Assembly (NCBI RefSeq): GCF_003710105.1
Contig: NZ_CP033325.1
Coordinates: 2,790,001 to 2,854,000, forward strand
DNA: 64,000 nucleotides
Direction: 5' to 3'
Source of the DNA: Georgenia faecalis
GTDB lineage: Bacteria; Actinomycetota; Actinomycetes; Actinomycetales; Actinomycetaceae
Positions 1 to 57,893 of the stretch are shown here, one piece after another; the stretch's first letter is position 1; every line of letters begins with the position of its first letter. A program made the position numbers and the translations under genes. The notes under the pieces were generated by a model. It was not told where the DNA came from and made no database searches. It saw only the letters and a program-made list of their open reading frames with translations.

Positions 1-1506
1 CCCCTCGCGAGTGCCCGGGACACCCCCGAGCACCAGGCCGTGCTCGAGGGCTGGCTGCGCTCCTACGACGCCGGGGAGCTCTTCGACGATGCCGGCCGCC
101 TCCGCGAGGACATCGCCGCCCTGGCGCCCGAGGGTGAGCTGCGGATGAGCGCCACGCCGTACGCCAACGGCGGGCTCCTCCTCAAGGACCTCCGCCTGCC
201 CGACTTCCGCGAGTTCGGGGTCCAGGTGCGCGTCCCCGGGGAGACCATCAAGGAGCCCACCCGCGTGCTGGGCGAGTGGCTGCGCGAGGTGGTGCGGCGC
301 AACCCCACGAACTTCCGCCTCTTCGCGCCCGACGAGTTCGCCTCCAACCGCCTGCAGGCGGTCTTCGACGTCACCGGGAAGCAGTGGGACGCGGAGTACG
401 TCGACCCGTCGGTGGACCAGAACCTCGTGCGCGCCGGGCGCGTCATGGAGATGCTCTCGGAGCACCAGTGCCAGGGATGGCTCGAGGGGTACCTCCTCAC
501 CGGCCGGCACGGGCTGTTCACCTCCTACGAGGCGTTCATCCACATCGTCGACTCGATGTTCAACCAGCACGCCAAGTGGCTCGACGCCACCAACGACATC
601 GCCTGGCGGCGCCCCGTCGCCTCCCTCAACTACCTCCTCAGCTCGCACGTGTGGCGCCAGGACCACAACGGCTTCTCCCACCAGGACCCCGGTTTCATCG
701 ACGTCGTCGTCAACAAGAAGGCGAACGTCATCCGGGTCTACCTGCCGCCGGACGCCAACACCCTGCTCGCCACCTACGACCACTGCCTGCGCTCGCGCCA
801 GTACGTCAACGTCGTCGTGGCCGGCAAGCAGCCCAACCCCGTCTACCTCACCGTCGACGAGGCGGTCGCGCACTGCACCCGCGGGCTGGGCATCTGGGAG
901 TGGGCCGGCAGCGAGGTGGAGGGCAGCGAGCCCGACGTCGTCCTCGCCTGCGCCGGCGACATCCCCACGATGGAGACGCTCGCCGCGGCCGACCTGCTGC
1001 GCCGGCACGTCCCGGGCCTCAAGGTCCGCGTCATCAACGTCGTCGACCTCATGCGCCTGCAGGACGCCCGCGAGCACCCCCACGGGCTCACCGACGCCGA
1101 GTTCGACCTCACCTTCACCACGGACAAGCCGGTGATCTTCGCCTACCACGGCTACCCCTGGCTCATCCACCGCCTCACCTACCGCCGCCACGGGCACTCG
1201 AACATCCATGTGCGAGGGTTCAAGGAGGAGGGCACGACGACGACGCCGTTCGACATGGTCATGCTCAACGACCTCGACCGGTTCCACCTCGTCATGGACG
1301 TCATCGACCGGGTGCCGTCCCTGAAGTCCCGCTACGCGGGGCTGCACCAGCGCATGTCGGACAAGCGTCTGGAGGCGCGGGAGTACACCCGGCAGTACGG
1401 CGTCGACCTGCCGGAGGTCGCCGACTGGGTCTGGCCCGACGCCGGGCAGACGGCCACGGAGGCCGCCGGACCCATGCGGGACAGCACCGGCGGGGACAAC
1501 GAGTAG
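1..1506 (+). CDS. xfp: Phosphoketolase (Xfp), C-terminal part, 5' truncated by window edge
   Basis: The reading frame is open from base 1 and encodes 501 residues, about the last 60% of an ~800-residue thiamine-diphosphate phosphoketolase, so the true start lies outside the window. The sequence matches the family's middle and C-terminal (transketolase-like) domains, for example the [19 protein letters not shown] segment before the C-terminal domain. The enzyme cleaves xylulose-5-P and/or fructose-6-P with phosphate to acetyl phosphate plus an aldose phosphate. Pta and ackA follow directly and would use the acetyl phosphate, which supports the call. Substrate preference cannot be read from the sequence. 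Confidence 0.95.
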
Positions 1507-1521
1507 CACCGCAGCACCGCA

Positions 1522-1569
1522 GCACGCACGCACGCACGCACGCACGCAACGCACGCAACGCACGCACGC
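1522..1569. repeat. (ACGC)n-type microsatellite in the xfp-pta spacer
   Basis: The 82-bp spacer begins with two copies of a GCACCGCA-like unit and continues into six uninterrupted GCAC/ACGC tetranucleotides, then further imperfect copies broken by single extra A residues. Such short repeats can change length by slippage. Any effect would be on spacing or mRNA between xfp and pta, because no reading frame crosses it. Confidence 0.8.
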
Positions 1570-1588
1570 CAACACCAGGGAGAGCACA

Positions 1589-3676
1589 GTGGCCCGGAGC
1601 ATCTACATCGCCTCACCGGAGGGGTACACGGGCAAGTCGACGATCGCGCTGGGCCTCGTCGACCTCGTCGTGCGGCGCGTCCAGCGGGTCGGCATCTTCC
1701 GGCCGGTCGTCCACGGCAGCGACCAGCCCGACAACGTGCTCGAGCTCCTGCTCTCCCACGACGGCGTCGACATGGACTACGCCGACGCCGTCGGGGTGAC
1801 CTACGAGGAGGTCCACGCCGACGAGGACGCCGCCCTGAGCCGGATCGTCGAGCGCTACCGCGAGGTCGAGCACGCCTGCGACGTCGTCGTCATCGTCGGC
1901 TCGGACTACACCGACGTCGCCGGGCCGGCCGAGCTCGCGTTCAACGCCCGCGTCGCCGCCAACCTGGGCTCCCCCGTGCTGCTCGTCGTCAAGGCGCTCG
2001 ACCGCACGGGCGAGGAGGTCCGCCAGGTGGTCGACCTCGCGTCGGCGGAGATCCGCGCCAACCACGCCTCGGTCGTGGCGGTGGCGGTCAACCGGTGCCC
2101 GGAGGAGGCCGCCGACGACGTCCGCGCCCACCTCGCCGACGTCACCGTGCCCGTGTGGCTCTTCCCGGAGATCCCCCTGCTCTCCGCCCCCACCGTCGCC
2201 GAGCTCATGGCCTCCGTCGACGGCACGCTCTTCGCCGGGGACGAGGCGCTCCTCATCCGCGAGGCGGAGCACGTCCTCGTCTGCGGGATGAACACCGACC
2301 ACATCCTCGAGCGGCTGCGCGACGGGCAGGTCGCCATCGCGGCCGGCGACCGGTCCGAGGTGCTCCTCGCCCTCATGAGCGCCCACGCCTCGGAGAACTT
2401 CCCCTCGCTGGCCGCGGTCGTCCTCAACGGCGGCTACCTGCCCAGCCCCCAGGTGCGCACCCTGGTGGAGGGCCTGGGCCAGTCCCTGCCCATCATCACC
2501 ACCGCCCACGACACCTACGAGACCGCGCGGATCGCGTCGACCACCCGGGGCCTCATCTCCCAGGGCACGCAGCGCAAGCGGGACCTGGCGCTGAGCGCGT
2601 TCGAGCAGAACGCGGACCCTGAGGCCGTCCTCGCCACCCTCGACGTGCCCCGCAGCCCCGTGGTGACGCCGCTGATGTTCGAGTCCGAGCTGCTCGAGCG
2701 GGCCCGGGGCGACCGCAAGCACATCGTCCTGCCCGAGGGCACCGACGACCGCATCCTGCGCGCGGCGAGCACGCTGCTCTCCCGCGGCGTCGCCGACCTC
2801 ACCCTGCTCGGCAACGAGGCCGCCGTGCGCGGCCGCGCCCGGGAGCTGGGCCTCGACATCGATGCGGCCCCGGTCATCGACACCCGCACGAGCGAGCTGC
2901 TCGAGGAGTTCGCCGAGGAGTACACCCGCCTGCGCCAGCACAAGGGGATGACGGTGGACCGGGCGCTCGAGGTGCTCCCGAGCGTGTCGTACTTCGGCAC
3001 GATGATGGTCCACCTCGGCATGGCCGACGGCATGGTCTCCGGCGCCCAGCACACGACGGCGCACACCATCAAGCCCTCCTTCGAGATCATCAAGACCCGC
3101 CCGGGGACGTCGATCGTCTCCTCGGTGTTCTTCATGTGCCTCGCCGACCGGGTGCTCGTCTACGGCGACTGCGCCGTCAACCCCGACCCCACCGCCGAGC
3201 AGCTCGCCGACATCGCCATCTCCTCCGCCGAGACGGCCGCGCAGTTCGGCGTCGACCCCCGCGTGGCGATGCTCTCCTACTCCACGGGGGCGTCCGGGAC
3301 GGGCGCCGACGTCGACAAGGTGCGCACGGCCACGGGCCTGGTCCGCGAGCGCCGGCCCGACCTGTTCGTCGAGGGCCCGATCCAGTACGACGCCGCCGTC
3401 GACGCCTCCGTCGCGCGCACGAAGATGCCCGAGTCCGAGGTGGCGGGCCGGGCGACCGTCTTCATCTTCCCGGACCTCAACACCGGCAACAACACCTACA
3501 AGGCCGTGCAGCGCTCCGCCGGGGCGGTCGCGGTCGGGCCGGTCCTGCAGGGCCTCAACAAGCCCGTCAACGACCTGTCCCGGGGAGCGCTGGTCCAGGA
3601 CATCGTCAACACCGTCGCCATCACCGCCGTCCAGGCGCAAGGAGCGGGCACGCCCGCGAAGGAGCCCATCGCATGA
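1589..3676 (+). CDS. pta: Phosphate acetyltransferase (long form with N-terminal P-loop domain)
   Basis: This 695-residue protein interconverts acetyl-CoA and acetyl phosphate. The start is GTG, preceded by a GGGAG ribosome-binding site. The N-terminus has a P-loop-like stretch (SPEGYTGKST, residues 9-18) of the DRTGG/BioD-like regulatory domain. The last ~320 residues are the catalytic PTA domain, with the conserved block around SYFGTMMVHLGMADGMVSGA. The length fits the long Pta class of actinobacteria and enterics. The stop overlaps the ackA start by four bases (ATGA), so the two are translationally coupled. Confidence 0.96.
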   Translation: MARSIYIASPEGYTGKSTIALGLVDLVVRRVQRVGIFRPVVHGSDQPDNVLELLLSHDGVDMDYADAVGVTYEEVHADEDAALSRIVERYREVEHACDVVVIVGSDYTDVAGPAELAFNARVAANLGSPVLLVVKALDRTGEEVRQVVDLASAEIRANHASVVAVAVNRCPEEAADDVRAHLADVTVPVWLFPEIPLLSAPTVAELMASVDGTLFAGDEALLIREAEHVLVCGMNTDHILERLRDGQVAIAAGDRSEVLLALMSAHASENFPSLAAVVLNGGYLPSPQVRTLVEGLGQSLPIITTAHDTYETARIASTTRGLISQGTQRKRDLALSAFEQNADPEAVLATLDVPRSPVVTPLMFESELLERARGDRKHIVLPEGTDDRILRAASTLLSRGVADLTLLGNEAAVRGRARELGLDIDAAPVIDTRTSELLEEFAEEYTRLRQHKGMTVDRALEVLPSVSYFGTMMVHLGMADGMVSGAQHTTAHTIKPSFEIIKTRPGTSIVSSVFFMCLADRVLVYGDCAVNPDPTAEQLADIAISSAETAAQFGVDPRVAMLSYSTGASGTGADVDKVRTATGLVRERRPDLFVEGPIQYDAAVDASVARTKMPESEVAGRATVFIFPDLNTGNNTYKAVQRSAGAVAVGPVLQGLNKPVNDLSRGALVQDIVNTVAITAVQAQGAGTPAKEPIA

Positions 3677-43381: not shown

Positions 43382-43603
43382 TTACTTGTAGCGGTAGACG
43401 ATACGACCCCGGGTGAGGTCGTACGGGCTCAGCTCGACGACCACCCGGTCCTCGGGCAGGATCCGGATGTAGTGCTGCCGCATCTTGCCGGAGATGTGGG
43501 CGAGCACCTTGTGACCGTTGCTCAGCTCAACGCGGAACATCGCGTTGGGCAGTGCCTCGACCACGGTGCCCTCGATCTCGATGACGCCGTCCTTCTTCGC
43601 CAT
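43382..43603 (-). CDS. infA: Translation initiation factor IF-1
   Basis: A 73-residue OB-fold protein of standard length ([20 protein letters not shown] to RGRIVYRYK). AGCGGAGG lies before the ATG. It normally follows map; here 13.4 kb separate the two, so infA needs its own promoter or readthrough. A TTGACC hexamer is present upstream on the minus strand, but no matching -10 was convincing. Confidence 0.97.
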
Positions 43604-43887: not shown

Positions 43888-44236
43888 CGTGCGCGCACCG
43901 ACGGCTCCTGCGGGACCGCCCGTCACCAGCAGACCGGGCGGGGCCGCACCGGTGGACGGGGTGTTCTGGGGTGACCACGCCGGGGGTTCCCCCACCGGCG
44001 GCCAGCGGCCACGCGGGCCCGCGGGGACGGCCCCCGGCGGGCGGGGGTGTCGCGGACGGTGCTGGGCGCATGGGGGGACTCCTCGAGGTCGACCCCAGCA
44101 CACCACCGACGCGCCGGTCCGCGCGTCCCCTCGGCGGTGGGCCACCGGTTGATCATCGTGGGGCCGCGGGGTGACACCGGGGTGAGCGCGGCGCTCGGGC
44201 GCGCGGCGCGCGGGGCGTAGGCGACGTACGCGGTCA

Positions 44237-44483: not shown

Positions 44484-47400
44484 TCAGGACGTGTGGGACC
44501 GCCGGCGGCCCCGGGCGGCGACCGCCCCGGCGAGGGCGAGCAGCAGCCCGATGGCGGCGAGGCCGCCGATGTCGGCCCCGGTGGGCGGGATCGCCGGCGT
44601 GCGCGGCGGCACGGTGGGCGGCGCCTCCCGGGGCGGGGTCCGGTGGGTCGTCGTGCAGTCGCCCACACACTCCGGGTCCCCGTCGCCGGTGACGACGTTG
44701 ACGAGGGTGGCCGACCAGGCGTCGTCGTCGACCTCGACCTGGTAGGTCAGGGTGGCGGTCCCGGAGAACGTGCCCACCTGCCACACCAGCTCGTCACCGA
44801 CGAGGGCCGCCGTGCCCACGCTCACCGTGATGTCACCGGTGAGGTCGGCGTCGTCGAGGACGTCGGACAGGTCGTCCACCACCCGCACGCCGGTCGGCGT
44901 GCCCTGGGCCTGGAGGGTGACGGTGTAGGTGATGACGTCACCGGGGCGAACCGTCGAACCGGACGCCGGGTCGGACGACTTGCTGATCGTCCAGGACGGG
45001 GGCTCGACGCAGTCGCGGCCGGTGGTGTCCTCGCCCTCGACGGTCAGGGTGGCCGAGTTGAGGAACCCGCCGCCGTCGGTGCCGTCCTCGCCGGTGCACT
45101 GCCCCGCCGGGGTGCCGGGCACGCCCGGCGCCACCGTGGCGACGACCGTCACCGCGTAGGTGTGGGTGGCGCCGCCCGCGATCTCCCGGTCCTGGGCCAG
45201 CACGGCGGTGTCACCCGCCGCGAGGTCCCACGTGCCGGAGACGTCGGTGCCCTCGAGCTCCCACCGCGCCGACGTGGGCGTGATGCCCTGGCCGTACTCG
45301 AGGGTGTCGGTGAGGTCGTAGGTGGTGCCGACGTTCGTCGTGCTGTCGACCACCACGTCGTACGTCACGGTCCACGACCCGTCGTCGTTCTGCGTCGCTC
45401 CCGTGGCGGTCTTGTCGATCTCCAGGGCCGGCTCGGGGATCTCCACACAGGCGTCGTCGTCGTAGTCGTCGTTGCCCGAGGTGAGGGTCGCCCCGTTGAA
45501 CAGACCGCTCCCCGGCGTGCCGCCGTCGGGGACGCAGGGGCGGTCGACCGGGTCGACGCCCGGGGTGAGCGAGAGGTTCACGAGGACCTCGTAGGTGTGC
45601 GTCGCCCCTGCGGGCAGCGCCTCACCGGTGACGATCACCGGCTGCGTGTCCCCGTCCCACTCCTCGTACGTCGTCCCGTCGCGGGAGATCGTCGCGGAGT
45701 TGATGACCACGCCCTCGGCGAACCCGAGGTCGTCGGACAGGTCGTAGGCGAGGTCGTGGGTGTCGCTGGGGTTGTCCACGACGATCGTGTACGCCACGTC
45801 CCACGTCCCGTCGGGGTTGGCCACCAGGTCGCCCTCGCGCTTGTCCACGGTCGGGGCCGCGGGCTCCTCGCAGGCGCGGTCGGTGGTGTCCTCGCCGCCG
45901 ACGGTGATCGTGGCGGCGTTGAGGAAGCCGCCACCGGAGGTGCCGTCCTCGCCGGAGCAGACGCCCGGCTCGGTGCCGATCACACCGGTCTCGACCTCCG
46001 CGACCACCGTCACCGTGTAGGTGTGGGTGGCGTTGCCGGTGATCGCCCGGTCCTCGGCGAGCACAGCCGTGTCACCGGCCGCGAGGTCCCACTCGCCGGA
46101 GGCGTCGGTGCCCTCGAGCTCCCACTCCGCCGACGTGGGCGTGAGGCCCTCCCCGTACTCCAGGGTGTCGGACAGGTCGTAGAACCCTCCGACCGCGGTC
46201 GTGCTGCGCACGATGATCTCGTACGTCACCGTCCAGGAGCCGTCGGCATTCTGGCGGACCCCCGTCGCGACCTTGTCGAGGTCGAGGTCGGGCTCGGTGA
46301 GCGGGTGGCAGGCGTCGTCGTCGTAGCTGTCGTTGCCCGAGACCAGGGTCGCGGCGTTGAACAGCCCGCTGCCCTCACCGTCCTCGGGCTCGCAGTCGCG
46401 GTCCTCGTCATCGATCGCCTGGCTGAGCGAGAGGTTGACGAGCACGTCGTAGACGTGGGTCGTGCCGCGCGGCAGCGCCACGCCGGTGGCGATCACCGGC
46501 TGCGTGTCCCCGTCCCACTCCTCGTACGTCGTCCCGTCGCGGGAGATCGTCGCGGAGTTGATGACCACGCCCTCGGCGAACCCGAGGTCGTCGGACAGGT
46601 CGTAGGCGAGGTCGTGGGTGTCGCTGGGGTTGTCGACGTGGATGGTGTACGTCGCGTCCCACGTCCCGTCCTCGTTCGCCTCGAGGGTGCCCTCGCGCTT
46701 CTCGACCGTGGGAGCCGCCGGCTCCGCGCAGTCACGCACGACGACCTCGCTCTCGTCGACGGTGAGGGTGGCGGCGTTGAGGAACCCGCCGCCCGCCGTG
46801 CCGTCCTCGCCCGAGCACTGGCCCGGCGTCGACCCGACGGTCCCGGTCGCCACCTCGGCGATCACGATGACGGTGTACGTGTGCGTCGTCCGGGCCGGGA
46901 GCGTGACGTCGGTGGCGAGGACGGCGGTGAGGTTGCCGGGCAGGTCCCACTCGCCGGCGTCCGCGGTGCCGTCACGTTCCCACCTCGCCGACGTCGGGGT
47001 GAGCCCCGCGCCGAACTCCAGGGTGTCGGTCAGGTCGTAGCTCGCGCTCAGCGCCGGGTTGTCGTTGGTCACGGTGACGTCGTAGGTGACCGTCCACGAC
47101 CCGTCGGCGTTCTGGTGCGCGCCGAGCGCGGTCTTGTCGACCTCGAGCTCGGGGTCGGGGATCGGGACGCACGCCTCGGCGGACTGCTCGTCGTTGCCCG
47201 AGACGATGGTGACCTCGTTGAACAGGCCCTGACCCGCGTTGCTCCCGTTGACGCCGCAGGCGCGGTCGTCCTCGTCGATGTCCGTGGTGAGGGAGATCGT
47301 CACGGTCACCGTGTACGTGTGCGTCGCTCCGGCCGGCAGCGCCACGCCCGTGGCGATGGTGGTCTCGTCGACGCCGTCCCAGTCGGGGAACGTCGTCCCG

Positions 47401-50400
47401 TCGCGGGACACCGTCGCCGACTCGATGGCGACGCCCTCGGCGAACCCGAGCTCGTCGGAGATGTCGTAGGTGAGGTCCCGGGTGTCGCTCGGGTTGTCCA
47501 CGACGAGCCGGTACGTCACCGTCCAGGTGTCGTCGTCGTTGTCGACGAGCTCACCGGCCTCCTTGTCGACGGTCGGGGCCACCGGCTCGAGGCAGTCGCG
47601 ATCGGTGAGGGTCTGGGTGTTGGCGGTGAGGGTGGCGAGGTTGAGGAAGCCACCGGGAGTCGTGCTGCCCTCGTCCGGGCACTGCCCGGGCTCGGTCCCG
47701 ATGACGCCGGTCCCTACCTCCGCAATGACCGTCACCGCGTAGGTGTGGGTCGCGCCGGCCGCGATGGCGCGGCCGGTGGCGAGCACCGTGGTGTTCCCGG
47801 CGGTGAGGTCCCACTCACCGGAGACGTCGGTGCCCTCGAGCTCCCACTCCGCCGAGGTCGGGGTGATGCCCGCCCCGTACTCGAGGGTGTCGGAGAGGTT
47901 GTACTCGCCCGCGAAGGTCTCCGGGTTGGTCACCACGACGTCGTAGGTCACGGTCCACGACCCGTCGGCGTTCTGGTCCGCGCCCGTGGCCACCTTGTCG
48001 AGGGTGAACTCACCGGGCACGCACACCCTGACCGTCGTGGAGTCGGTCGGGTCCTCCCCGGTGGTGACGTCCACCGTGGCGGTGTTGGTGAACGGGGTGC
48101 ACGTCCCGCCGACCCCCTGGTGGGTGTTCTGGTAGGTGAAGGTGGTCGGCGTGCCCGCGGCGTTCCAGGTGGCCTGCCCGAGCAGCTCGGGCTCGTCGAG
48201 GTCGACCTTGTCGTCGTAGACGTCGACGGTGCGGTCGGTCTCGTCGTCGAGGGTGAACGTGACGTCGACCTCGGCCTCGGTGGACTGGTCGGTGCCGTCG
48301 GCGTCGGTCCACGCGACCGTCGCCGTGTTGGTGCCGGTGGTCGCCGGGGCGGAGGTGAACGTGCAGGAGTAGTCGAGCGTCACGGTCTCACCCGCGGCGA
48401 GCTCGACGTCCGTGCCGCCGGAGACGGTGCACGTGGCACCGCCGCCGACGTCGACGGCGTCCGTGATGTCGACGGTGAGGGTGCCGAAGTCGTTGGGGTT
48501 CGTCACGGTGATCTCACCGGCGAGCTCCCAGCCGGAGTCCTCGGTGTCCCCGGGGATGGCCTCGACCACGTAGTCGTAGGTCGCGGTCCCGTCCGGGTTG
48601 ACGGTGACGTCGGTGTCCTCCACCGACTTGTCGATGTCCCAGAAGTAGGTCCGGTCGAAGGTCGCCTCGGCGGTCTTCGTGGCGGTGACGGGTGCCTGCT
48701 GGCAGACCGTCACCTCCTCCGTGGCCTCCTGGTCGGTCTCGGCGATCCACGCGGTGTTGGTGAAGTCCACGCACTCGCCGGGCACGCCCTCGAGGGTGAG
48801 GGAGTACTCGAACTCCGTCGGGGTGCCGTCCTCGTTCCACTCGGCGGTGCCCAGCGTCACCGGGCTCGCCGGGTTCGTCTTGTCGTCGACGACGGTGATG
48901 GTCTCGTTGATCGGCGTCTGCGACCAGCCGTCGCTCGTCACGTCGGCCGTGCCGACGGCCGAGCTCGTGGGCGTGGGGACGTCGCCGTCCCAGGTGACGG
49001 TCGCCGTGTTCGTCCCCTCGTAGTCCGGCTGCGAGGTGAACGTGCAGGTGTACTCGAAGGTCACCGTGGCACCCGCGGCGATGACGGCGTCCTGGCCGCC
49101 CTCGACGGTGCAGGTGGCCCCGCCGCCCACGTCGACGGAGTCGACGACGTCGGCGGTGATGGCCAGCCACGCGTTGGGGTTGGTCACGGTGATCTCACCG
49201 GTCATCGCCCACTCGGAGTCGGTGAACTCCAGCGGGGTCGCCGTGACCGTGTAGTCGAACGTCGCGGTGCCGTCGGGTCCGATGGTCACCGAGGTCTCGT
49301 CCGCCTCCTTGTCGATCTCCCACAGGTACGTGCGGTCGAAGCTCGTGACGACGTTCTTCGCCACGGTGAGGTCGAGCCCGGTGCAGACCTCGACGGTCTC
49401 GGTGCTCTCCTCATCGACCGCGAGGACACCGATCCCGCCGGCGCCGCGGGAGACGTCGGTGTCGGTGATGCGCGCGGTGTTCTGGTAGGTCTCGCACTGC
49501 CCCGGCACGCCCGGCCAGGTGAGGTCGTAGGTGAAGGTCACGGGGCCGTCGTCCGCCTGGACGCGGTTGCCCACCTGGGTGCCGTCGTCGTAGTCGGTGA
49601 GGTCGAACTCGGAGTCGGTGACGATCACCTCGAAGTCCGTCACGTTGATCTCGGCGCTGGCGAAGGCGAACGCCGCGGTGCCCTGGGCGGAGCCAGCGGT
49701 CCCGGGGAACGTCGTCGCGTTCCACGTAGCCGTCGCGGTGTTGGTGCCGGAGGCGGCAGGCGTCGGCACGGAGCAGTTGTAGGCGAGCGTGAGGCTCGCG
49801 TTGGCCGCCACGGTGACGTTGGTGCCCCCGGCGACCGTGCACGTCCCGTTGGGCAGGCTGTCGGTGACGTTGACCCCGGTGAAGTCCACGTCGTTGGGGT
49901 TGCTCACGACGATGCTGCCGCGCACCCCGTAGCCGGAGTCGATCGGCCCGCTCGGCGTCACGGTGACGTCGTAGGTGAAGGTGGCGTCCTCCCCGGCGGG
50001 GATCTCCTGGCGGTCGGGCTGGCGGACCAGCTTCTCGATCTCCCAGTCGTAGTCACGGTCGAAGTACGTCGCCGCGGTCTTCGTCACCGTGAGCTCGTCG
50101 TAGTCGGGCGGGACCTCGGCGTTGCGGACCGTGCAGGTGACGATCACCTGCGCTCCGACGTCGACGGTGAAGCCGGTGGTGCCGGCGTTCGTCACGGGAA
50201 GGGACGCACCGGTGTCCGTCGTGCACCGGGCGTTGAACCCGCCCTGCTGGGCGAGGGTGTAGCCCGCGTTCACCGTCTCGTTGACGGTGACCGGGGTCGC
50301 GAACGTGCCGGCCGGGTGCGCGACGTCGAAGTTGACCGCGCTCGTGGTGTCGGTCGTCACCGAGGTCGGGGTGACACCGGCGGTCGGCGTGGTGAAGGTC

Positions 50401-51932
50401 CACCCGGGACCACCGGGGACGATGGTCCCGGCGAGGGTGCGGACCTCCTTGACGACGCTCAGGGTCCCCGCGCAGTTCTGCGAGGCGATCTCCTCCAGCG
50501 TCTCGGCCAGGTCGGCGAAGTTGGTGCGGTAGTAGTCCTGGTTCTCGACGGGACCGGAGATCAGCGACATGCGGTTCGCCGCTGCCGGGGTGCCGGCGGC
50601 GTTGCCGATCCCGACGACGATCACCTGGGACCCGGTCTCCTTGACGGCGTTCGCCGAGTGGATGGCCTCCTCGACCTCGGTGATGGAGGCCTCGCTGCCG
50701 GAGCCGCGCGCGTCCCGGTGGTAGGTCGGCTCGCCGTCGGTGAGGAAGAGCACGACGTCGTGCTCGACACCGCTCTCGACGACCTGGTGGAACGCGCGGT
50801 CCCAGTTCGTCCCGCCCTGCCGCTCGGTCGGGGCCCCGGTCAGCGAGTTGATCTTGGCGGTGACCACCGACGCGGTGCCAGCGGTGGCAACCGAGGTCAG
50901 CGGGAGCGTCGTGTTGTTCACCCCGGCCGCCGGAGCCGCCGTCGCGAACGTGTAGACACCCACCCGCGAGGGCGTGCCGGTGAGCTCGTCGACGAAGTCG
51001 ACCGCTGCGGCCTTGTACTGGTTGAGGAGTGCCGCGGAGTCCGTGACGGAGTTCGACAGGTCCATGACGAGGGCGAGGTCGATCCCACAGACGGGCGGGG
51101 CGACGTTGTTGGCTCGGACGTCGGGCCATGTCCGCACGCCGCCCGGCCGGGTCTGCTCCGCCGGTCGCGGGAGGGTCACGGTGCGGGCGGCGGCGGAGCC
51201 CGTGCGCACGATGGCGCCGGTGTTGTAACGGAAGAAGTCGGTGGGGTCGTCCCAGAAGACCGGGACGCGCCACCCGCCCGGCGCGGCGGTCTCGACGGCG
51301 TAGAAGTAGTTGTTACCCGTGGCGAGGGACACCTCGACGCCGCACAGGCCGGTGCCGTCAGTGGTACAGGTGCCGACGGACGTGCCACCGCTGACCGTGT
51401 TCACGCTGCCGACCCGGAAGAACTCGAACGAGGCGCCCGCCAGGGGCGCGACCGTCGTGCTCGTGCTACCCGTGCCGGTGCGGTCCCCGCCCTTGCGGAC
51501 GAGCAGGTGCGCCTCGTTGGTCCCGGGCTCGCCCGGGGGCACCTGCAGCACGCTGACGTCCCCGGCGGCCGCGGCCTCCTCGGCCGGCGGGGCGCGCTCC
51601 TCGACGGGCGGCGCGGCGGGCTCCTCGGCCGCGGGCACGTCGGCGGGCGGTGCCGCCGGCTCGTCCGCGGGCGGCGCAGCCGGCTCGTCGGCGGGCGGCG
51701 CGGCCGTCTCGTCCCCGTCGGTCGCCGTCTCGCCCACGGCGGTGTCCTCGACGACCGACTCCAGCGTCGGCTCGGAGGTGACGGCGTCCTCGACGGCGGT
51801 CTCCGGTGGTGGCTCGCCCACGGCGAGCGCACTGGTGCCCGAGGTCACCAGGGTGAGGCTGAGGAGCCCGGCGAACAGGGCTCGAGCGCCGCGACGGGGG
51901 CGGATGGAACGGGGTGTGGCGGCACGGCGCAT
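44484..51932 (-). CDS. Giant secreted VWA-domain repeat protein with sortase-like anchor
   Basis: A 2482-residue surface protein. The signal peptide ends near residue 38 (SALA). A Pro/Ala/Glu repeat linker (~77-120, APPADEP units) is followed by a prealbumin/Cna-like region (~130-245) and a VWA domain (~282-460) whose MIDAS is DLSNS near residue 290. Three beta-modules marked by DRxYxWxIxK occur at ~621, 863 and 1091. Then four A modules (xDKxATGxxQNxDGSWTVTY; ~1309, 1596, 1883, 2170) alternate with three B modules (NPSDTxDLxYDxSDxLGFAEGV), and a DUF11-like domain lies at ~2311-2420. The C-terminus has IPPTG (2448-2452), a hydrophobic helix and RGRRR, an LPXTG-like sorting signal. ATG with GGGAG upstream. 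Adhesion or matrix binding is inferred; no enzyme domain is seen. Confidence 0.9.
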   Translation of the reverse strand: MRRAATPRSIRPRRGARALFAGLLSLTLVTSGTSALAVGEPPPETAVEDAVTSEPTLESVVEDTAVGETATDGDETAAPPADEPAAPPADEPAAPPADVPAAEEPAAPPVEERAPPAEEAAAAGDVSVLQVPPGEPGTNEAHLLVRKGGDRTGTGSTSTTVAPLAGASFEFFRVGSVNTVSGGTSVGTCTTDGTGLCGVEVSLATGNNYFYAVETAAPGGWRVPVFWDDPTDFFRYNTGAIVRTGSAAARTVTLPRPAEQTRPGGVRTWPDVRANNVAPPVCGIDLALVMDLSNSVTDSAALLNQYKAAAVDFVDELTGTPSRVGVYTFATAAPAAGVNNTTLPLTSVATAGTASVVTAKINSLTGAPTERQGGTNWDRAFHQVVESGVEHDVVLFLTDGEPTYHRDARGSGSEASITEVEEAIHSANAVKETGSQVIVVGIGNAAGTPAAANRMSLISGPVENQDYYRTNFADLAETLEEIASQNCAGTLSVVKEVRTLAGTIVPGGPGWTFTTPTAGVTPTSVTTDTTSAVNFDVAHPAGTFATPVTVNETVNAGYTLAQQGGFNARCTTDTGASLPVTNAGTTGFTVDVGAQVIVTCTVRNAEVPPDYDELTVTKTAATYFDRDYDWEIEKLVRQPDRQEIPAGEDATFTYDVTVTPSGPIDSGYGVRGSIVVSNPNDVDFTGVNVTDSLPNGTCTVAGGTNVTVAANASLTLAYNCSVPTPAASGTNTATATWNATTFPGTAGSAQGTAAFAFASAEINVTDFEVIVTDSEFDLTDYDDGTQVGNRVQADDGPVTFTYDLTWPGVPGQCETYQNTARITDTDVSRGAGGIGVLAVDEESTETVEVCTGLDLTVAKNVVTSFDRTYLWEIDKEADETSVTIGPDGTATFDYTVTATPLEFTDSEWAMTGEITVTNPNAWLAITADVVDSVDVGGGATCTVEGGQDAVIAAGATVTFEYTCTFTSQPDYEGTNTATVTWDGDVPTPTSSAVGTADVTSDGWSQTPINETITVVDDKTNPASPVTLGTAEWNEDGTPTEFEYSLTLEGVPGECVDFTNTAWIAETDQEATEEVTVCQQAPVTATKTAEATFDRTYFWDIDKSVEDTDVTVNPDGTATYDYVVEAIPGDTEDSGWELAGEITVTNPNDFGTLTVDITDAVDVGGGATCTVSGGTDVELAAGETVTLDYSCTFTSAPATTGTNTATVAWTDADGTDQSTEAEVDVTFTLDDETDRTVDVYDDKVDLDEPELLGQATWNAAGTPTTFTYQNTHQGVGGTCTPFTNTATVDVTTGEDPTDSTTVRVCVPGEFTLDKVATGADQNADGSWTVTYDVVVTNPETFAGEYNLSDTLEYGAGITPTSAEWELEGTDVSGEWDLTAGNTTVLATGRAIAAGATHTYAVTVIAEVGTGVIGTEPGQCPDEGSTTPGGFLNLATLTANTQTLTDRDCLEPVAPTVDKEAGELVDNDDDTWTVTYRLVVDNPSDTRDLTYDISDELGFAEGVAIESATVSRDGTTFPDWDGVDETTIATGVALPAGATHTYTVTVTISLTTDIDEDDRACGVNGSNAGQGLFNEVTIVSGNDEQSAEACVPIPDPELEVDKTALGAHQNADGSWTVTYDVTVTNDNPALSASYDLTDTLEFGAGLTPTSARWERDGTADAGEWDLPGNLTAVLATDVTLPARTTHTYTVIVIAEVATGTVGSTPGQCSGEDGTAGGGFLNAATLTVDESEVVVRDCAEPAAPTVEKREGTLEANEDGTWDATYTIHVDNPSDTHDLAYDLSDDLGFAEGVVINSATISRDGTTYEEWDGDTQPVIATGVALPRGTTHVYDVLVNLSLSQAIDDEDRDCEPEDGEGSGLFNAATLVSGNDSYDDDACHPLTEPDLDLDKVATGVRQNADGSWTVTYEIIVRSTTAVGGFYDLSDTLEYGEGLTPTSAEWELEGTDASGEWDLAAGDTAVLAEDRAITGNATHTYTVTVVAEVETGVIGTEPGVCSGEDGTSGGGFLNAATITVGGEDTTDRACEEPAAPTVDKREGDLVANPDGTWDVAYTIVVDNPSDTHDLAYDLSDDLGFAEGVVINSATISRDGTTYEEWDGDTQPVIVTGEALPAGATHTYEVLVNLSLTPGVDPVDRPCVPDGGTPGSGLFNGATLTSGNDDYDDDACVEIPEPALEIDKTATGATQNDDGSWTVTYDVVVDSTTNVGTTYDLTDTLEYGQGITPTSARWELEGTDVSGTWDLAAGDTAVLAQDREIAGGATHTYAVTVVATVAPGVPGTPAGQCTGEDGTDGGGFLNSATLTVEGEDTTGRDCVEPPSWTISKSSDPASGSTVRPGDVITYTVTLQAQGTPTGVRVVDDLSDVLDDADLTGDITVSVGTAALVGDELVWQVGTFSGTATLTYQVEVDDDAWSATLVNVVTGDGDPECVGDCTTTHRTPPREAPPTVPPRTPAIPPTGADIGGLAAIGLLLALAGAVAARGRRRSHTS
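45632..45776. repeat. 145-bp perfect direct repeat, copy 1
   Basis: This stretch is identical, base for base, to 46490-46634 (offset 858 bp). It encodes the core of the third B module (from TYEEWDG back to NPSDTHD). Flanking module sequence differs at many sites. Confidence 0.92.
46490..46634. repeat. 145-bp perfect direct repeat, copy 2
   Basis: This copy encodes the corresponding core of the second B module. The synonymous positions are also identical to copy 1, while the first B module (around 47340-47490) differs. Confidence 0.92.
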
Positions 51933-52024
51933 GACAGAACTCCCTTGTGATCAGCGGGCAACTGTCAGCACACACCGCATGCCGGATGACGGGCATAAGG
52001 AACGGAGGCTGATGACCGGCTGAT

Positions 52025-52036
52025 TCACCAGGGTGA
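52025..52036. promoter_or_regulatory. Small inverted repeat upstream of the giant protein gene
   Basis: TCACC-AG-GGTGA lies 93 bp before the start of the surface-protein gene, in the 194-bp gap after the second regulator gene. It is a possible regulator-binding site. The match to any known operator is not established. Confidence 0.3.
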
Positions 52037-52126
52037 TGCGGGGGTGAGGGGGCTGGCCGGGGTCACCGCGGTCCCGCACGCCCCGGGTGGCGCACGGCGG
52101 GCGGGAGCGCCGCGTGGCGCCCGGGT

Positions 52127-54583
52127 TCAGCGGTCGCCGGAGCGGTCGTCCAGGAGGCCGAGCTCGCGCGCCCGGGCGACGGCGGCGGCCCGGGTGGCCA
52201 CCCCGAGCTTGCGGTAGATGCGCTGGACGTGGGTCTTCACGGTGCTCTCGGAGAGGTAGAGGCTGCGTGCGACCTGGGCCAGGGACCGGGGGCCGGCCAG
52301 GTGCTCGAGCACCCGCCGCTCCGCGGCGCTGAGCTGGCTGGCGCGGAGCGGCTCGGGGTACGGCGAGGAGGCGGACGCGAGCCGCGGCGCGTCGAGGAAG
52401 CGCTGCACCGCCGGGTGGCCCGCGGCGATGGCGTCGAGGTCGCCGCGCGGCACCGAGAGGAACGGCAGGAGGACCCCGACGTCGGCGGCGAGCGCCACCG
52501 CGGTGCTCAGCGACGCGAGGGCGCGCTCCTCGTCCCCCGTACGCCAGGCGGCGCACGCCCGGATCACGAGGAGCTCGAGGGACGCGCACGGGGCGAGCCC
52601 GGCGTCGCCGTCCGCGCGCTGGGTGAGGCGGAGCGCCTCGTCGTAGGCCCCGACGTAGAAGGCGTGCCGCGCCCGGTTGGGCACGAGGCCCGGGATCGGC
52701 GCGAGCAGCGCCGCGCAGCGGTCGTACTCGCCGGCGACGAGGTGGAGGTCGCAGCGCAGCGACGTCGCCGCCCGGACGACGAGCCCCAGCTCGGCGCTCC
52801 CCGGGTCGAGGGTGACGGACAGGCTCGCGACCTCCGGGAGCCCGCCCGCCGGGTCGCCACGGTGGAGCGCGCCGTGCGCGACGACCAGGCGCGCCGCAGC
52901 CACGAGCGGGGCGAGGGGGGACCGCGCGGGCACCCGCAGCACCTCCGCCGCGTCGTCGAGGCGGAGGGTGGCGATCGTCGCCTCGACGAGGGGCCGCGCC
53001 GCCAGCTCCAGGTCGCGCACCTCCCCGGTGGCCTCGGCCGCGGCGCGGAGCCAGCCCTCGGCGTCGCCGAGGTGGCCGAGCAGCGCCAGCGCGACCGCGG
53101 CGCCGGTCGCCGCCTCACGGTAGGCGCCACCGTCGGCCCCGGCCCGGCGGGCGGCGGTGGCGAACCCGTACGCCGCCCCGACGACGTCCCCCGCGTACAG
53201 CTGGTCCAGGCTCCACTCGACGAGCAGCTCCGGCACGGCGCCGCGGACCTCGTCGTCGACCGGTGCCTCGTCGACGGGTTGCCGGGCCAGGTGGCTGCGG
53301 GGAACCGACGCCGCGCCGCTCCGCCGCGACAACCGCTCGGTCATGCTGGGAGCGCGGCCGGACCAGCCCCCGGGCGTGAGCCGGCCGGACCGCAGCACGT
53401 GCTCCGCGCGCGCCGCAGTGTGGACGTCGAGGATGTGCTCACGGGCGAGGACGAGCCGCGCGCTGCTCGCCACGACGTCGTCCGGCATCCGTGCGACGAC
53501 GTCCCGCAGCCGGGGAGCGTGCTCCCGGAGCAGCTCGGCCCAGTGGTCCTCCACGAGCCCGATCGCGATCGGCCACGCGCCGGCCTTGGCCGCGTGCTCG
53601 AGGGCGACGATCACCGGGCCGTCGCCGGCGCTGAGCGCGTGGAGGAGGCGGAACCGCGCGGGGTCCTCGCGCTCGAGCACGTGCGCCGCGGCGGCGCGGA
53701 TCGGGGGTGCCATCGCATAGGTCGGCCCCGGCCCGACGGCGGTGACGAGGTTGGCCTCGACGAGGTCGTCGAACAGCCCGTCCCGGGCGGGCTCACCGGC
53801 GAGGCGCCGGATGTCCTCGCGGGTGAACGTCCCTGGGACGGCGAGCGCCGTCGCCAGCCGGAAGTAGGGGGCGAAATCGGCGTCGTGGAGAACCGCGCCG
53901 ACGTAGTGCTCCACCGGCGGCAGCTCGATGTCGAGGGAGCCGTCGGGGCGGCGGGCGGAGTCGAGGACGACGGCCCGGACCAACGCCGGCCAGCCGATGA
54001 GATCGGCGCGCAGGGCACTGGCCTCGGGCGGGGTCAGCGGCAGGCCGAGCCGGCCGGCGAACGCCCGCGTCTCGGCGTCGTCGAGGGAGAGGTCCCGCAC
54101 GCGCAGGACGCCGGCGTCCACCGTGGCCGGCCCGAGCCGCTCGATGGGACGGTGCGCGCGCGTGGTGACGACGAGGTGGAAGAGCTCGTGGTCCTGGACG
54201 AGGCCTACCAGCTCGTCGTCGACGGCGGTGTCGTGGACGTGGTGCAGGCCGTCGATGACCAGGACGAGACGCCGGTCCAGGCGGCGCAGGACGGCCCGGA
54301 GGGAGCCCGTCGTCGGCACCGTCTCCGCGAGGGCGATCCCGTCCTCGACCCACGTGTCGTGCACCGCGGTCCACAGGTCCGCGGCCGACACCGGCCCCTC
54401 GGGCACCGTGAGCCAGGACCGGGTGACCCCGGACATCTCGGGCGAGGCGAGCCAGCTGGCCGCGACGCTCGTCTTGCCGTACCCCCGGGGCGCCCGGAGG
54501 ACCACCAGCGGGGGCAGGCGTCGGCCCATCGCGGCGGCCGCGCGCGTCGGCGCGAACGCCCGGGGGATGCGCGGGATGGGCAT
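52127..54583 (-). CDS. Large LuxR-family ATPase regulator (MalT/LAL type), second of pair
   Basis: An 818-residue regulator of STAND-ATPase architecture. Walker A is APRGYGKTS (~31-39), Walker B is LVLVIDGLHHV (~106-116), and a long helical repeat middle follows. The C-terminal LuxR HTH is LSAAERRVLEHLAG...STVKTHVQRIYRKLGV (~755-812). No receiver domain is present. It starts 6 bp after the stop of a similar gene and is followed by the giant surface-protein gene on the same strand. Control of that gene is inferred from position. Confidence 0.88.
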   Translation of the reverse strand: MPIPRIPRAFAPTRAAAAMGRRLPPLVVLRAPRGYGKTSVAASWLASPEMSGVTRSWLTVPEGPVSAADLWTAVHDTWVEDGIALAETVPTTGSLRAVLRRLDRRLVLVIDGLHHVHDTAVDDELVGLVQDHELFHLVVTTRAHRPIERLGPATVDAGVLRVRDLSLDDAETRAFAGRLGLPLTPPEASALRADLIGWPALVRAVVLDSARRPDGSLDIELPPVEHYVGAVLHDADFAPYFRLATALAVPGTFTREDIRRLAGEPARDGLFDDLVEANLVTAVGPGPTYAMAPPIRAAAAHVLEREDPARFRLLHALSAGDGPVIVALEHAAKAGAWPIAIGLVEDHWAELLREHAPRLRDVVARMPDDVVASSARLVLAREHILDVHTAARAEHVLRSGRLTPGGWSGRAPSMTERLSRRSGAASVPRSHLARQPVDEAPVDDEVRGAVPELLVEWSLDQLYAGDVVGAAYGFATAARRAGADGGAYREAATGAAVALALLGHLGDAEGWLRAAAEATGEVRDLELAARPLVEATIATLRLDDAAEVLRVPARSPLAPLVAAARLVVAHGALHRGDPAGGLPEVASLSVTLDPGSAELGLVVRAATSLRCDLHLVAGEYDRCAALLAPIPGLVPNRARHAFYVGAYDEALRLTQRADGDAGLAPCASLELLVIRACAAWRTGDEERALASLSTAVALAADVGVLLPFLSVPRGDLDAIAAGHPAVQRFLDAPRLASASSPYPEPLRASQLSAAERRVLEHLAGPRSLAQVARSLYLSESTVKTHVQRIYRKLGVATRAAAVARARELGLLDDRSGDR

Positions 54584-54589
54584 GAGCGG

Positions 54590-57052
54590 TCAGTCCCCGC
54601 GCCGGCTCGCTCCACGGACCGGCCAGTGGGCACTGATCCGCAGGGCTTCCTGCCGGCTCGACGCGCCGAGCTTGTGGTACACGCGGCGCAGGTGGGTCTT
54701 CACGGTGTTCGGGGAGATCCCGAGCTGCTCGGCTATGCCCGCCGGGCCGGCATGGTCGCGCAGGGCGACGAGCACCTCGGCCTCCCGGTCGGACAGGTCC
54801 GCGGGCGCCGGGGGCACCGGTGCGTCCTCGAGCGGTCGGGCCGGGGCCCTCCCGTCCGCGGGGCGGAGGGCACGCGCCGAGGGCACACCGGCCGCGAGCG
54901 ACTCGAACACCTCCGTGGGCAGGAGGTGGAGCGCGCGGCGCAGGCCGGTCTCCTGCGCCGTGCGCACGGCCTGGGCGAACGCCCGGCGGGCTGCCGCCGG
55001 CTCGCCGAGCTGGTCCAGCGCCCAGGCGATGTGGACCTCGCACGCGAAGTGGGCCCGGCGGGTGGCCGGCGTCGCCAGGACGGCCTCCGCCACACGGATG
55101 GCATCCCGCCAGCGTCCCTGCGCGAGCAGGAGCTGGGCGCGCGTCGTGGCCGAGACCGCCGTGTCGGGGAGGTCGTCGAGGACGTCGGCGGCCGCACCGC
55201 TCATCCCGGACAGCAGGAGCAGCTCGGCGAGCGTCGTGGCGAGCGTGGCCTCGGTGATCCCGCCGGGGTCGGTGTGCCGCAGCGCCGCGCGGAGGGCGCC
55301 GATGCTGCGGGCGCGCTCCTCCTCGGACCCGCTCACGGTCGCCAGGTGCGCCCGGGCGAACACCGACATGGCCCACAGGTCGTCCCGGCGCCGCAGCTCC
55401 CGGATCCGGGCCACCGCCGCCGCGGCGTCGGGCAGGACCCCGTCGACGCAGGCGATGGCGTAGCCGATCCGGGCGCTCGCCTGGATGAGGCCGACCAGGC
55501 CGTCGCGCGACGGCCCCTGGAGCACGTCGGCGAGCTCGGGGTCCCTCGCCCAGCCCAGGGCGTGCTCCACGTCGCCGAGGATGGCCCGGGTCATGAGCAT
55601 CCCCACCGTCCCCATGAGCCGGGCAGCGAGGTCCTCGTGCTCGATGCCGTGCTCGCGCACCCGCCCGAAGGCGTACAGGGCGGTGTCGTTGTCGCCGGCG
55701 AGCACCGCGCTCACCGCCCACTGGAACAGCACCATGACGTGGTCGCCCGTGCCCCCCTCGGCCGAGCGCAGGCGCGCGGTGAGGTCGAGGAACGCCGGGT
55801 CGGAGGGCAGCCACACGCCGGGGTTCCGGCCGGGTCGCCGCATGCCGCGGGGCAGCTCGTCGCGGACGACCGCCAGCCGGGAGTCCGCCCGCACGAGGGC
55901 GTCCGGGATGGCGCGGGCCGCCTCGACAAGGGCGTCCTGGTGGTGCGTGACCAGCGTGGCCCAGTCCTCCTCGACGACCGCCAGCGCGACCTCCCACTCC
56001 CCCGCGAGGCACGCGTGCCGCAGGACGCCGGCCGGGCCCTCCTCCTGGGCGGCCGACGCCATGAGCGCGCGGTGCACCTCCGGCACGACCTCGGGACGGG
56101 TCTCACCGAGGATGCGGACCAGTGCCTCCCGGATGGCGCGCGGGTAGGAGTACCGCACGGCGACGCCGCGGTGCGCCCGGGTGAGCAGTCCGGCGGCCCG
56201 GAGGTTGCGCAGGTGCGTGCCCACGGCGGCGCCGGGGACGATCGCCCGGGCCGTGGCCTCGCTGAACTCCTCGGGCACGGCCGTCCGCAGGAGGAAGTCG
56301 CGCAGGCCGTCGGAGGTCATGTCCTGGAGCAGCCCGAAGAGGTAGTCGTCGACGAGCCCGGTGTCGACGACGGTGTCCGAGCCGTTCATCGCCGCCGCCT
56401 CGATGCACGCCCGGACGGCGGCGGGCCAGCCCCCCAGGTCGTCGGCGATCCGGTGCGCGTGCTCCGCCGAGACGGTGAGCCCCCGGCGGCGGGCGAGGGC
56501 CTGGACGAGGTCGCCGGTGAGGGCGAGGTCCGTGGGGCGCACGACGGCGGTGTCGACCGAGAGGGCCCCCGTGGTCTCGATGTCACGGACGGCGCGGGTG
56601 ACGACGACGAGCTCGAGCCGGTCGTTGCGCCGCACGAGCTCGACGAGGTCCTCGTCGATCGCCGGAGCGCCCTCGAGCCGGCCCGCCTCGTGGAAGTCGT
56701 CGAGGACGAGGACGAGCGGGCGGCGGTGGAGGGTGAGCGCCCGGCGGACCACCGCACGGTCGTCCACGCCGGGCCCGGTCTCCACGCCCTCCTCCTCGAG
56801 GACCGCGCGCAGCAGGCGCCAGAATCCCGCGCCCACCCGCTCCTCGAGACCGAGGCGGACGTAGCGCACCGGCGGACCCTCCGCGCGCGAGGCGATCCAC
56901 CGCACGACGGCGGTGGTCTTGCCGTAGCCGCGGGGGGCGCGGACGACCGTCAGGGGCGCGCGGCGCTCGAGCGCCTCCGTGACCTTGGCACCGATCTGCG
57001 CGTCACGGCTGGCGCGTGGCAGCACGTCGCCCCGGCCCCCGACCTGCCCCAT
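54590..57052 (-). CDS. Large LuxR-family ATPase regulator (MalT/LAL type), first of pair
   Basis: An 820-residue paralogue of the next gene, with the same plan: Walker A is APRGYGKTT, Walker B is LVLVLDDFHEAG, the middle is helical repeats, and the LuxR HTH is LSDREAEVLVALRD...NTVKTHLRRVYHKLGA. The ATG at 57052 lies 7 bp after the map stop. Its ribosome-binding site is weak, so coupling to map is likely. Divergence between the two regulators is large, so they may respond to different inducers. Confidence 0.88.
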   Translation of the reverse strand: MGQVGGRGDVLPRASRDAQIGAKVTEALERRAPLTVVRAPRGYGKTTAVVRWIASRAEGPPVRYVRLGLEERVGAGFWRLLRAVLEEEGVETGPGVDDRAVVRRALTLHRRPLVLVLDDFHEAGRLEGAPAIDEDLVELVRRNDRLELVVVTRAVRDIETTGALSVDTAVVRPTDLALTGDLVQALARRRGLTVSAEHAHRIADDLGGWPAAVRACIEAAAMNGSDTVVDTGLVDDYLFGLLQDMTSDGLRDFLLRTAVPEEFSEATARAIVPGAAVGTHLRNLRAAGLLTRAHRGVAVRYSYPRAIREALVRILGETRPEVVPEVHRALMASAAQEEGPAGVLRHACLAGEWEVALAVVEEDWATLVTHHQDALVEAARAIPDALVRADSRLAVVRDELPRGMRRPGRNPGVWLPSDPAFLDLTARLRSAEGGTGDHVMVLFQWAVSAVLAGDNDTALYAFGRVREHGIEHEDLAARLMGTVGMLMTRAILGDVEHALGWARDPELADVLQGPSRDGLVGLIQASARIGYAIACVDGVLPDAAAAVARIRELRRRDDLWAMSVFARAHLATVSGSEEERARSIGALRAALRHTDPGGITEATLATTLAELLLLSGMSGAAADVLDDLPDTAVSATTRAQLLLAQGRWRDAIRVAEAVLATPATRRAHFACEVHIAWALDQLGEPAAARRAFAQAVRTAQETGLRRALHLLPTEVFESLAAGVPSARALRPADGRAPARPLEDAPVPPAPADLSDREAEVLVALRDHAGPAGIAEQLGISPNTVKTHLRRVYHKLGASSRQEALRISAHWPVRGASRRGD

Positions 57053-57059
57053 CTCGGCA

Positions 57060-57893
57060 TCATGGCAGAGGCGCGACCCGCACGCCGCGGTTCGCGAGCT
57101 GTTCTTCGCCGCCGTCCGCCGCGGTGAGCACCCACACGCCGCCGTCGGTGAGAGCGACGGTGTGCTCGGCGTGGGCCGCACGGGAGCCGTCCGTGGTGAC
57201 GACGGTCCACTCGTCGGCGAGCACCCGGGTGTGCCGCTCGCCCCGGGTGATCATCGGCTCGACGGCGAGGCACAGGCCCGGGCGCAGCTTGAGGCCGCGC
57301 TCACCCGTGCGGTAGTTGAGGACGTCCGGCGGCTGGTGCATGGCGGTGCCGATCCCGTGGCCGACGTACTCCTCGACGATGGCGTGCCGCACGCCGTGCT
57401 CCCGCTCGCAGCGCTCCACGGCCTCCTCGACGGCGTCGCCCACCACGCCGAGGCGCTCCCCCGTGGCCAGCGCCGCGACCGCGTCCCACAACGCCTCCTC
57501 GGTGACCTGCGCCAGCAGCTGGTCGCCGGGGTCCGCGGGGTCGAGCACCACCGTGAAGGCGGCGTCCCCGTGCCAGCCGTCGACGACGGCGCCGCAGTCG
57601 AAGGAGACGACGTCGCCCGGCGCCAGGGTGCGGGCCCCGGGGATGCCGTGGACCACCTCGTCGTTGACGGAGATGCACACGTGCGCGGGGTAGCCGTGGT
57701 AGCCGAGGAAGTTCGACCGGGCCCCCGCGCGGCGCAGGACCTCGGCGGCGACGCCGTCGAGGTCGGCGGTGGTGACCCCGACCGCGACGGCGGCGCGCAG
57801 GGCCGCGTGGATGTCGGCGACGACGAGGCCCGCGCGGCGCATGGCGCGGATCTGGTCGGCCGTCTTGTACTCGACGCGCTCACGTCCGAACAT
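57060..57893 (-). CDS. map: Type I methionine aminopeptidase
   Basis: A 277-residue dimetal peptidase removing the initiator Met. Metal ligands are Asp99 (VSFDCGA) and Asp110 (HGDAAF), then the His in VGHGIGTAMHQ and the Glu in VEPMI. It follows adk by 42 bp in the usual ribosomal-operon order. In relatives infA normally comes next; here the LuxR pair does. Confidence 0.96.
   Translation of the reverse strand: MFGRERVEYKTADQIRAMRRAGLVVADIHAALRAAVAVGVTTADLDGVAAEVLRRAGARSNFLGYHGYPAHVCISVNDEVVHGIPGARTLAPGDVVSFDCGAVVDGWHGDAAFTVVLDPADPGDQLLAQVTEEALWDAVAALATGERLGVVGDAVEEAVERCEREHGVRHAIVEEYVGHGIGTAMHQPPDVLNYRTGERGLKLRPGLCLAVEPMITRGERHTRVLADEWTVVTTDGSRAAHAEHTVALTDGGVWVLTAADGGEEQLANRGVRVAPLP

Follow-up and report, generated by a model that had tools for sequence, protein, structure and literature searches.

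A conserved tandem pair of divergent LAL-type STAND regulators as a candidate two-protein control unit for neighbouring cell-surface genes

Two adjacent genes on the minus strand of the window (the whole 64,000-nt stretch of DNA analysed here, bases 2790001-2854000 of the genome's single 3.43-Mb contig) both encode LAL/MalT-type STAND regulators, about 30% identical to each other and here called B (upstream) and A (downstream). The two genes are conserved as a pair in other genomes and share descent, they are linked to surface genes, and their products differ in their ATPase motifs. We consider the chances about even that A and B constitute one co-expressed two-protein STAND regulatory unit controlling nearby cell-surface genes; the likelihoods attached to this reading and to its rivals overlap and are not exclusive.

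A preliminary description of this locus had reported two LAL/STAND open reading frames of about 820 residues, each with an APRGYGKT P-loop and a LuxR HTH and lying 6 nt apart, and the coordinates (B stop at 54590, A start at 54583), motifs and Pfam matches all agree with it (Table 1). The C-terminal GerE/LuxR HTH (PF00196) scored 43.5 bits in A and 49.9 bits in B over a cut-off of 23.5. The AAA_22 match was weak, at 22.3 and 21.4 bits for A and B under the Pfam cut-off of 27, TPR matches were found only under cut-off, and no SARP match was found in either protein in Pfam. Predicted models of A and B show helix pairs at low confidence (mean pLDDT 58.5 and 53.7, respectively), and, built from two-row alignments, they are too poor for a fold search. 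B matched the MalT structure chain 8bob_C over residues 110-387 (E 3.7e-11). Since A and B scored far under the MalT equivalog cut-off (79.1 and 94.5 bits, against 537 bits for NCBIfam NF003420), both are classed as LALs and not as MalT.

The start of B at 57052 agrees with that in genomes G040 and G100, where the ATG comes 7 nt past the stop of the gene that we take to be map (methionine aminopeptidase), as it does here (57060 to 57052); an alternative GTG start at 57181 would overlap map. The gene on the far side of the locus is presumably infA. When the whole genome was searched with A, the sole other long match was B, and the remaining five matches covered the C-terminal HTH region. An antisense open frame of 1632 codons spans both regulators (window 52229-57127, plus strand); such a frame is expected from codon bias in a region of 76-78% GC, and it was not taken as a gene.

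Table 1. Features of the regulator locus, with positions numbered from the first base of the window
Feature	Position	Strand	Basis or remark
map, methionine aminopeptidase	57060..57893	(-)	7 nt upstream of B; name presumed
Gene B, upstream partner, 820 aa	54590..57052	(-)	P-loop, Walker B VLDDFH, helical middle, LuxR HTH
B P-loop APRGYGKT, residues 39-46	56915..56938	(-)	sequence
B LuxR/GerE HTH, residues 753-805	54638..54796	(-)	Pfam
Gene A, downstream partner, 818 aa	52127..54583	(-)	P-loop intact, Walker B VIDGLH without second acid, LuxR HTH
A P-loop APRGYGKT, residues 31-38	54470..54493	(-)	sequence
A LuxR/GerE HTH, residues 750-803	52175..52336	(-)	Pfam
Four heptamers CTCACCC, ATCACCC, ATCAGCC, ATCAGCC	52007..52048	(-)	steps of 11, 13 and 11 nt; candidate operator, PhoP-box-like
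Surface protein, 2482 aa, candidate target	44484..51932	(-)	VWA, isopeptide-forming fimbrial domain and DUF7927 over cut-offs
infA	43385..43597	(-)	far side of the pair-plus-cargo interval; 99% to G021 reference; name presumed

The B-then-A tandem was found in 16 of 200 sampled genomes of the window's family, distributed over genera g1, g7, g8 and g22 and always adjacent. In these genomes A scored >150 bits and B >460 bits, against best scores elsewhere of 58 (A) and 92 (B), and none of the 200 genomes had only one strong orthologue, with up to five candidates scored in each. All 16 pairs, the window's included, have a start codon for A between -4 and +6 nt from the B stop. In a sample of the order, the B profile matched at E 1e-30 in 24 of 297 genomes, all within three families. 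Tandem pairs were present in 17 of 24 genomes of a second family (two of them in G436), the remainder being G406, with a single gene, and six genomes with none or weak matches. The total is therefore 34 pairs in 33 genomes, which, being samples and related, give presence and not a number of origins.

G294, G393, G382, G406 and G034 have single LALs next to map, the last with a different, SpaA-type surface protein after the LAL, and G385 has one extra lone copy of B. The preliminary description had asked whether other genomes keep the pair together, and it had proposed that frequent occurrence of either gene alone beside the same surface protein would speak against it. The two genes are indeed kept together rather than apart in 33 genomes of two families, the exceptions being these single LALs and the G385 copy; lone genes thus exist, and they are infrequent.

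Descent was examined in a tree of 90 rows, built by a quick method with SH-aLRT support only and with a warning from the program about long branches. The 34 pairs and seven single-class rows split from 15 other LALs with a support of 96. All 34 A rows fell on one side of a branch (support 93), and the 34 B rows formed one group, except that the extra G385 copy was nested inside it. The single genes G294, G393, G382b and G382a lie outside both clades, while G406 branches off at the base of the B clade (80) and G034, on a very long branch, at that of the A clade (94); long branches make the placement of these single genes unsure. The pair is old, and it may have arisen by tandem duplication of a LAL already beside map. 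The A and B distance matrices correlate with an r of 0.88 (maximum 0.21 in 2000 permutations), a correlation that co-inheritance alone would also produce.

BLASTP aligned A and B with 241 of 823 positions identical (29%, E 8e-42). From N- to C-terminus, identity was 35% in the NBD, 25% and 24% in the two regions that follow, 20% in the TPR-like region and 34% in the HTH. The two proteins had been said to share a plan and to differ widely in the middle sensor region; the shared plan stands, and the divergence is not concentrated in that region. The TPR-like region shows no special divergence between the two proteins, because orthologues vary there too (33% for A-A and 42% for B-B, against 40% and 50% in the NBD and 56% for both in the HTH). 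It is possible that A and B recognize different ligands.

The regional comparison also bears on the alternative that A and B are two independent LALs, placed in an operon for co-expression only and each with its own ligand, homo-oligomer and promoters, which we regard as possible but on the unlikely side. The HTH identity between A and B (34% in the window, 37% on average) compares with 56% inside each clade, so the two may read different sites. Furthermore, GK[ST] is kept in the P-loop of 30 of 34 A rows, sister lineages have single LALs of the clade, and the source on the LALs GdmRI and GdmRII treats them as independent and reports a cascade in one strain (PMC6784220, excerpts). Nevertheless, a joint role is favoured over two unrelated regulators, mainly because none of the sampled first-family genomes has one gene of the pair by itself and because the B-A order and tight spacing have been kept despite very diverged sequences.

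The order on the minus strand of the window is map, 7 nt, B, 6 nt, A, 194 nt, the 2482-aa surface protein and then infA. In the stretches fetched, 28 of the 34 pairs have map upstream and 27 have infA downstream; in G100 and G064 an island separates A from infA, which lies about 33 kb and 27 kb downstream, respectively. The cargo between map and infA varies, comprising nothing, an exopolysaccharide-priming transferase, SipW-type modules or a VWA protein, and the window's cargo is the VWA surface protein alone. In five near-complete g8 genomes A is followed by a glycosyltransferase, a secreted protein and a flippase, with the priming transferase 10-18 kb off. A second surface protein and SipW-type genes follow the VWA protein in G100, G007 and G064, the cargo of G118 and G139 is a SpaA-type protein with SipW-type genes, and the priming transferase sits just upstream of B in G006, G021, G093, G106, G132, G211, G258, G375, G462 and G473. 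No gene was called, or little room was left, between A and infA in G051, G075, G125 and several second-family genomes. Reference surface and exopolysaccharide genes were unmatched in the stretch read, with partial annotation, of G051, G075, G125, G297, G310 and G385.

Across 34 genomes (the 33 with a pair, plus G406), the PF02397 priming transferase was present in 1-3 copies in 31, and in 21 it lay no more than 20 kb from the LAL locus, against 0.59 expected under random placement; the lineages are related, so the independent events are fewer than 21. The window's genome has a single PF02397 match, 2.65 Mb from the pair. Of the two pairs in G436, one (G436b) lies away from map and is directly followed by a SpaA-type and a SpaH/EbpB-type pilus protein, and the other (G436a) adjoins the priming transferase. 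Of the preliminary suggestion of two-input control, or hetero-oligomerization, at one target, one part is borne out, namely that A and B behave as a unit (tandem in 33 genomes, tightly spaced, with mirrored distances); the surface protein is no constant target, as the neighbours vary.

Similar neighbourhoods were also seen around LALs outside the clade. In G015, tandem LALs of 859 and 880 aa lie upstream of a SpaH/EbpB-type pilin and a class C sortase (contig C4, L156:6875-12105, 1063-3653), an arrangement of like kind with a second origin. In genus g21, a LAL is divergent to a large surface-type gene (L150 of G105, L151 of G050, L152 of G092 and L149 of G117); the LALs of G105, outside the clade, adjoin a pilin, a SpaA-type adhesin and a class C sortase (Pfam/NCBIfam), and the loci of G050, G092 and G117 were read as open frames only.

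The surface protein of the window carries, in addition to the domains in Table 1, a DUF11 match under cut-off and a C-terminal IPPTG-like sorting signal read by eye. A VWA protein 56-58% identical to it was found downstream of the pair only in the near-complete g8 genomes (5/5), 16-25 kb away. This single protein was rejected as a general target, since most pairs lack it. The proposal that VWA proteins generally follow LALs was also set aside, as a LAL was present in the stretch read at 3 of 17 VWA-protein loci outside the pair locus versus 0 of 18 control stretches, which is too weak (an eighteenth stretch, L168, lacked a VWA match and is not counted among the 17). The window's genome also encodes a second VWA paralogue (G000:C1:404085-405470, 44% identical), with no LAL in the stretches read.

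The heptamers upstream of the surface gene form two 11-nt-spaced pairs, 75-116 nt before its ATG. Upstream of the VWA gene, a related site is present in G007, G064, G040 and G083 and, in degenerate form, in G100, and the divergent priming-transferase promoter has two further sites in G007, G040, G064 and G083 and one in G100. The pattern TCANCCN5TCANCC precedes the transferase in G211, G258, G375, G462, G362, G426 and G228, and is also located before a second, distant transferase in G093 and before the surface gene of G436b; near the locus it was not found in G118, at G093's own pair or in G406. Two more copies lie in the window, at 44169-44185 (-), between the surface gene and infA, and at 132-148 (-). 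Control stretches totalling 355,316 bp, all taken from first-family genomes and several of them from small-genome genera, had no copy of the pattern. In ten whole genomes it occurs 3-25 times each, mostly elsewhere, with 121 copies in total versus 12 for a reversed-pattern control that differs in base context. Scans for sigma-70 promoters and terminators gave no result.

PhoP boxes are described as 11-nt repeats of GTTCACC type (PMC4415409 and PMC6784220, excerpts). Their period fits that of the repeat, and the heptamer NTCANCC overlaps with GTTCACC, differing from it in the window ahead of TCA. The number of whole-genome copies together with the likeness to PhoP boxes led us to reject the repeat as an established LAL operator and to treat it as a candidate operator. 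The repeat is a promoter feature common to much of the cargo, and PhoP is no less likely than the LALs to bind it.

These observations raise the alternative that the neighbourhood is incidental, with the map-infA interval serving as an insertion site for surface genes under PhoP or another OmpR-type regulator while the LAL pair controls something else. The repeats before surface and exopolysaccharide genes do have 7+4-nt units like those of PhoP boxes (GTTCACC; GTTCACCCGCC), most copies of their pattern in the ten genomes lie elsewhere, and some pairs have no reference cargo alongside. We nonetheless judge this explanation somewhat improbable: the PF02397 linkage is far over chance and appears in several arrangements, the relocated G436 pairs again adjoin surface or exopolysaccharide genes, and pilus genes are likewise flanked by LALs of G015 and G105 that fall outside the clade.

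The ATPase motifs differ between the two proteins. All 34 B rows have GK[ST] in the P-loop, and GKA replaces it in A of G228, G297, G310 and G385, which form one clade. The Walker-B columns of the alignment were read by eye, on the basis of STAND motifs that we take to contain two acids. The second acid is kept in 26 of 34 B rows and in 3 of 34 A rows (Fisher 1.6e-8, kinship ignored), and in the window B has DD and A has DG. It is also kept in 2 of 7 single-class rows and in 12 of 15 other LALs. Absence of the acid from 5 of 7 single-class rows means that A need not have lost it through partnership; the position is labile across the clade, with B the more tightly held. The weaker ATPase motifs of A are compatible with, but no proof of, hetero-oligomerization.

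Of the 34 genomes, the three that lack a PF02397 match (G297, G310 and G385) all belong to the GKA clade, and the 30 genomes outside that clade each have one. A tie between loss of exopolysaccharide priming and decay of A was retained as a lead only, the four GKA genomes being one clade; it is weakened further by the window's genome, where the single PF02397 frame is only 290 aa and yet A is intact.

That A is an ATP-impaired modulator, capping or braking B oligomers in a role like that of MalY on MalT with an unlike fold, appears unlikely. In its favour, the second Walker-B acid is missing from 31 of 34 A rows, four A rows have GKA, A is more diverged than B in 550 of 561 genome pairs, and there is a precedent in MalY, which blocks one MalT oligomerization face (PMC10427625, excerpts); against it, an HTH conserved at 56% and a P-loop that mostly keeps GK[ST] would be needless for a mere cap, and the four GKA rows possibly reflect one event.

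If A and B do act as one two-protein unit, the pair in the window's lineage is probably read together with map, given the 7-nt gap, and the spacing of B and A suggests translational coupling. Their activity would then probably be set after translation. By family likeness to MalT, B would be the canonical switch, closed when bound to ADP and passing to an open, ATP-bound state when its TPR-like sensor meets the signal. A would be the faster-evolving partner, less dependent on ATP chemistry, and would bring a second sensor and a second HTH of different specificity; it might join the B ring, bind beside it or limit it. Joint control could be exerted as a mixed oligomer or by co-binding of one promoter, and the predicted targets are exopolysaccharide priming in the wider group and the VWA surface protein in the window.

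A more specific version of the two-protein unit is a heteromeric STAND activator in which B is the ATP-gated switch and A, partly degenerate, adds a sensor and DNA specificity, housed in a ribosomal-protein gene cluster and re-used for whichever surface module arrives; we regard this version as unlikely. A heteromeric LAL pair of this kind resembles the paired NLRs of immunity, and, if true, it would be their bacterial transcriptional counterpart. With 33 natural-variant genomes, clear orthology, single-gene relatives and a gradient of ATPase-motif loss, the pair makes it possible to test whether STAND regulators can act as mixed assemblies, and it offers candidate regulators of exopolysaccharide, of pili and of further surface proteins in these actinobacterial families. 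To our knowledge, the ligands and mode of assembly of most LALs are still open. No description of the A/B pair was found in the titles and abstract starts of open-licence literature, a scope that left out most subscription papers.

Comparison with known systems begins with MalT of E. coli, which has the same order of P-loop NTPase core, helical-repeat middle and LuxR HTH (domain names from PMC10427625, excerpts). MalT is one self-oligomerizing regulator, whereas here there are two proteins, and no maltose genes were seen beside the pair. ADP holds MalT inactive, ligand and ATP drive it into oligomers seen as open rings, and oligomerization stabilizes the C-terminal domains for DNA binding (PMC10427625, excerpts). 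The best-known role of LALs is the activation of antibiotic clusters (PMC7105598, excerpts). SCO0877 and SCO7173 of Streptomyces coelicolor are pleiotropic LALs linked to PHO-regulon expression, which they lower, according to the authors probably via phoRP (PMC3282765, excerpts); unlike A and B, their locus numbers are far apart. The operators of PimR-type SARP-LAL regulators resemble the repeat described here in having heptamers, 4-nt spacers and an 11-nt period, but their heptamer is CGGCAAG, and it was with the PimR SARP domain that binding was studied in the cited work (PMC5930380, excerpts). Finally, GdmRI and GdmRII (gel14 and gel17) of the geldanamycin cluster differ from A and B in regulating an antibiotic pathway, in having other genes between them in the cited table and in having neither surface genes nor a map-infA location, but they provide an example of two LALs, 26% identical and at one locus, that are both required for one pathway (PMC6784220, excerpts).
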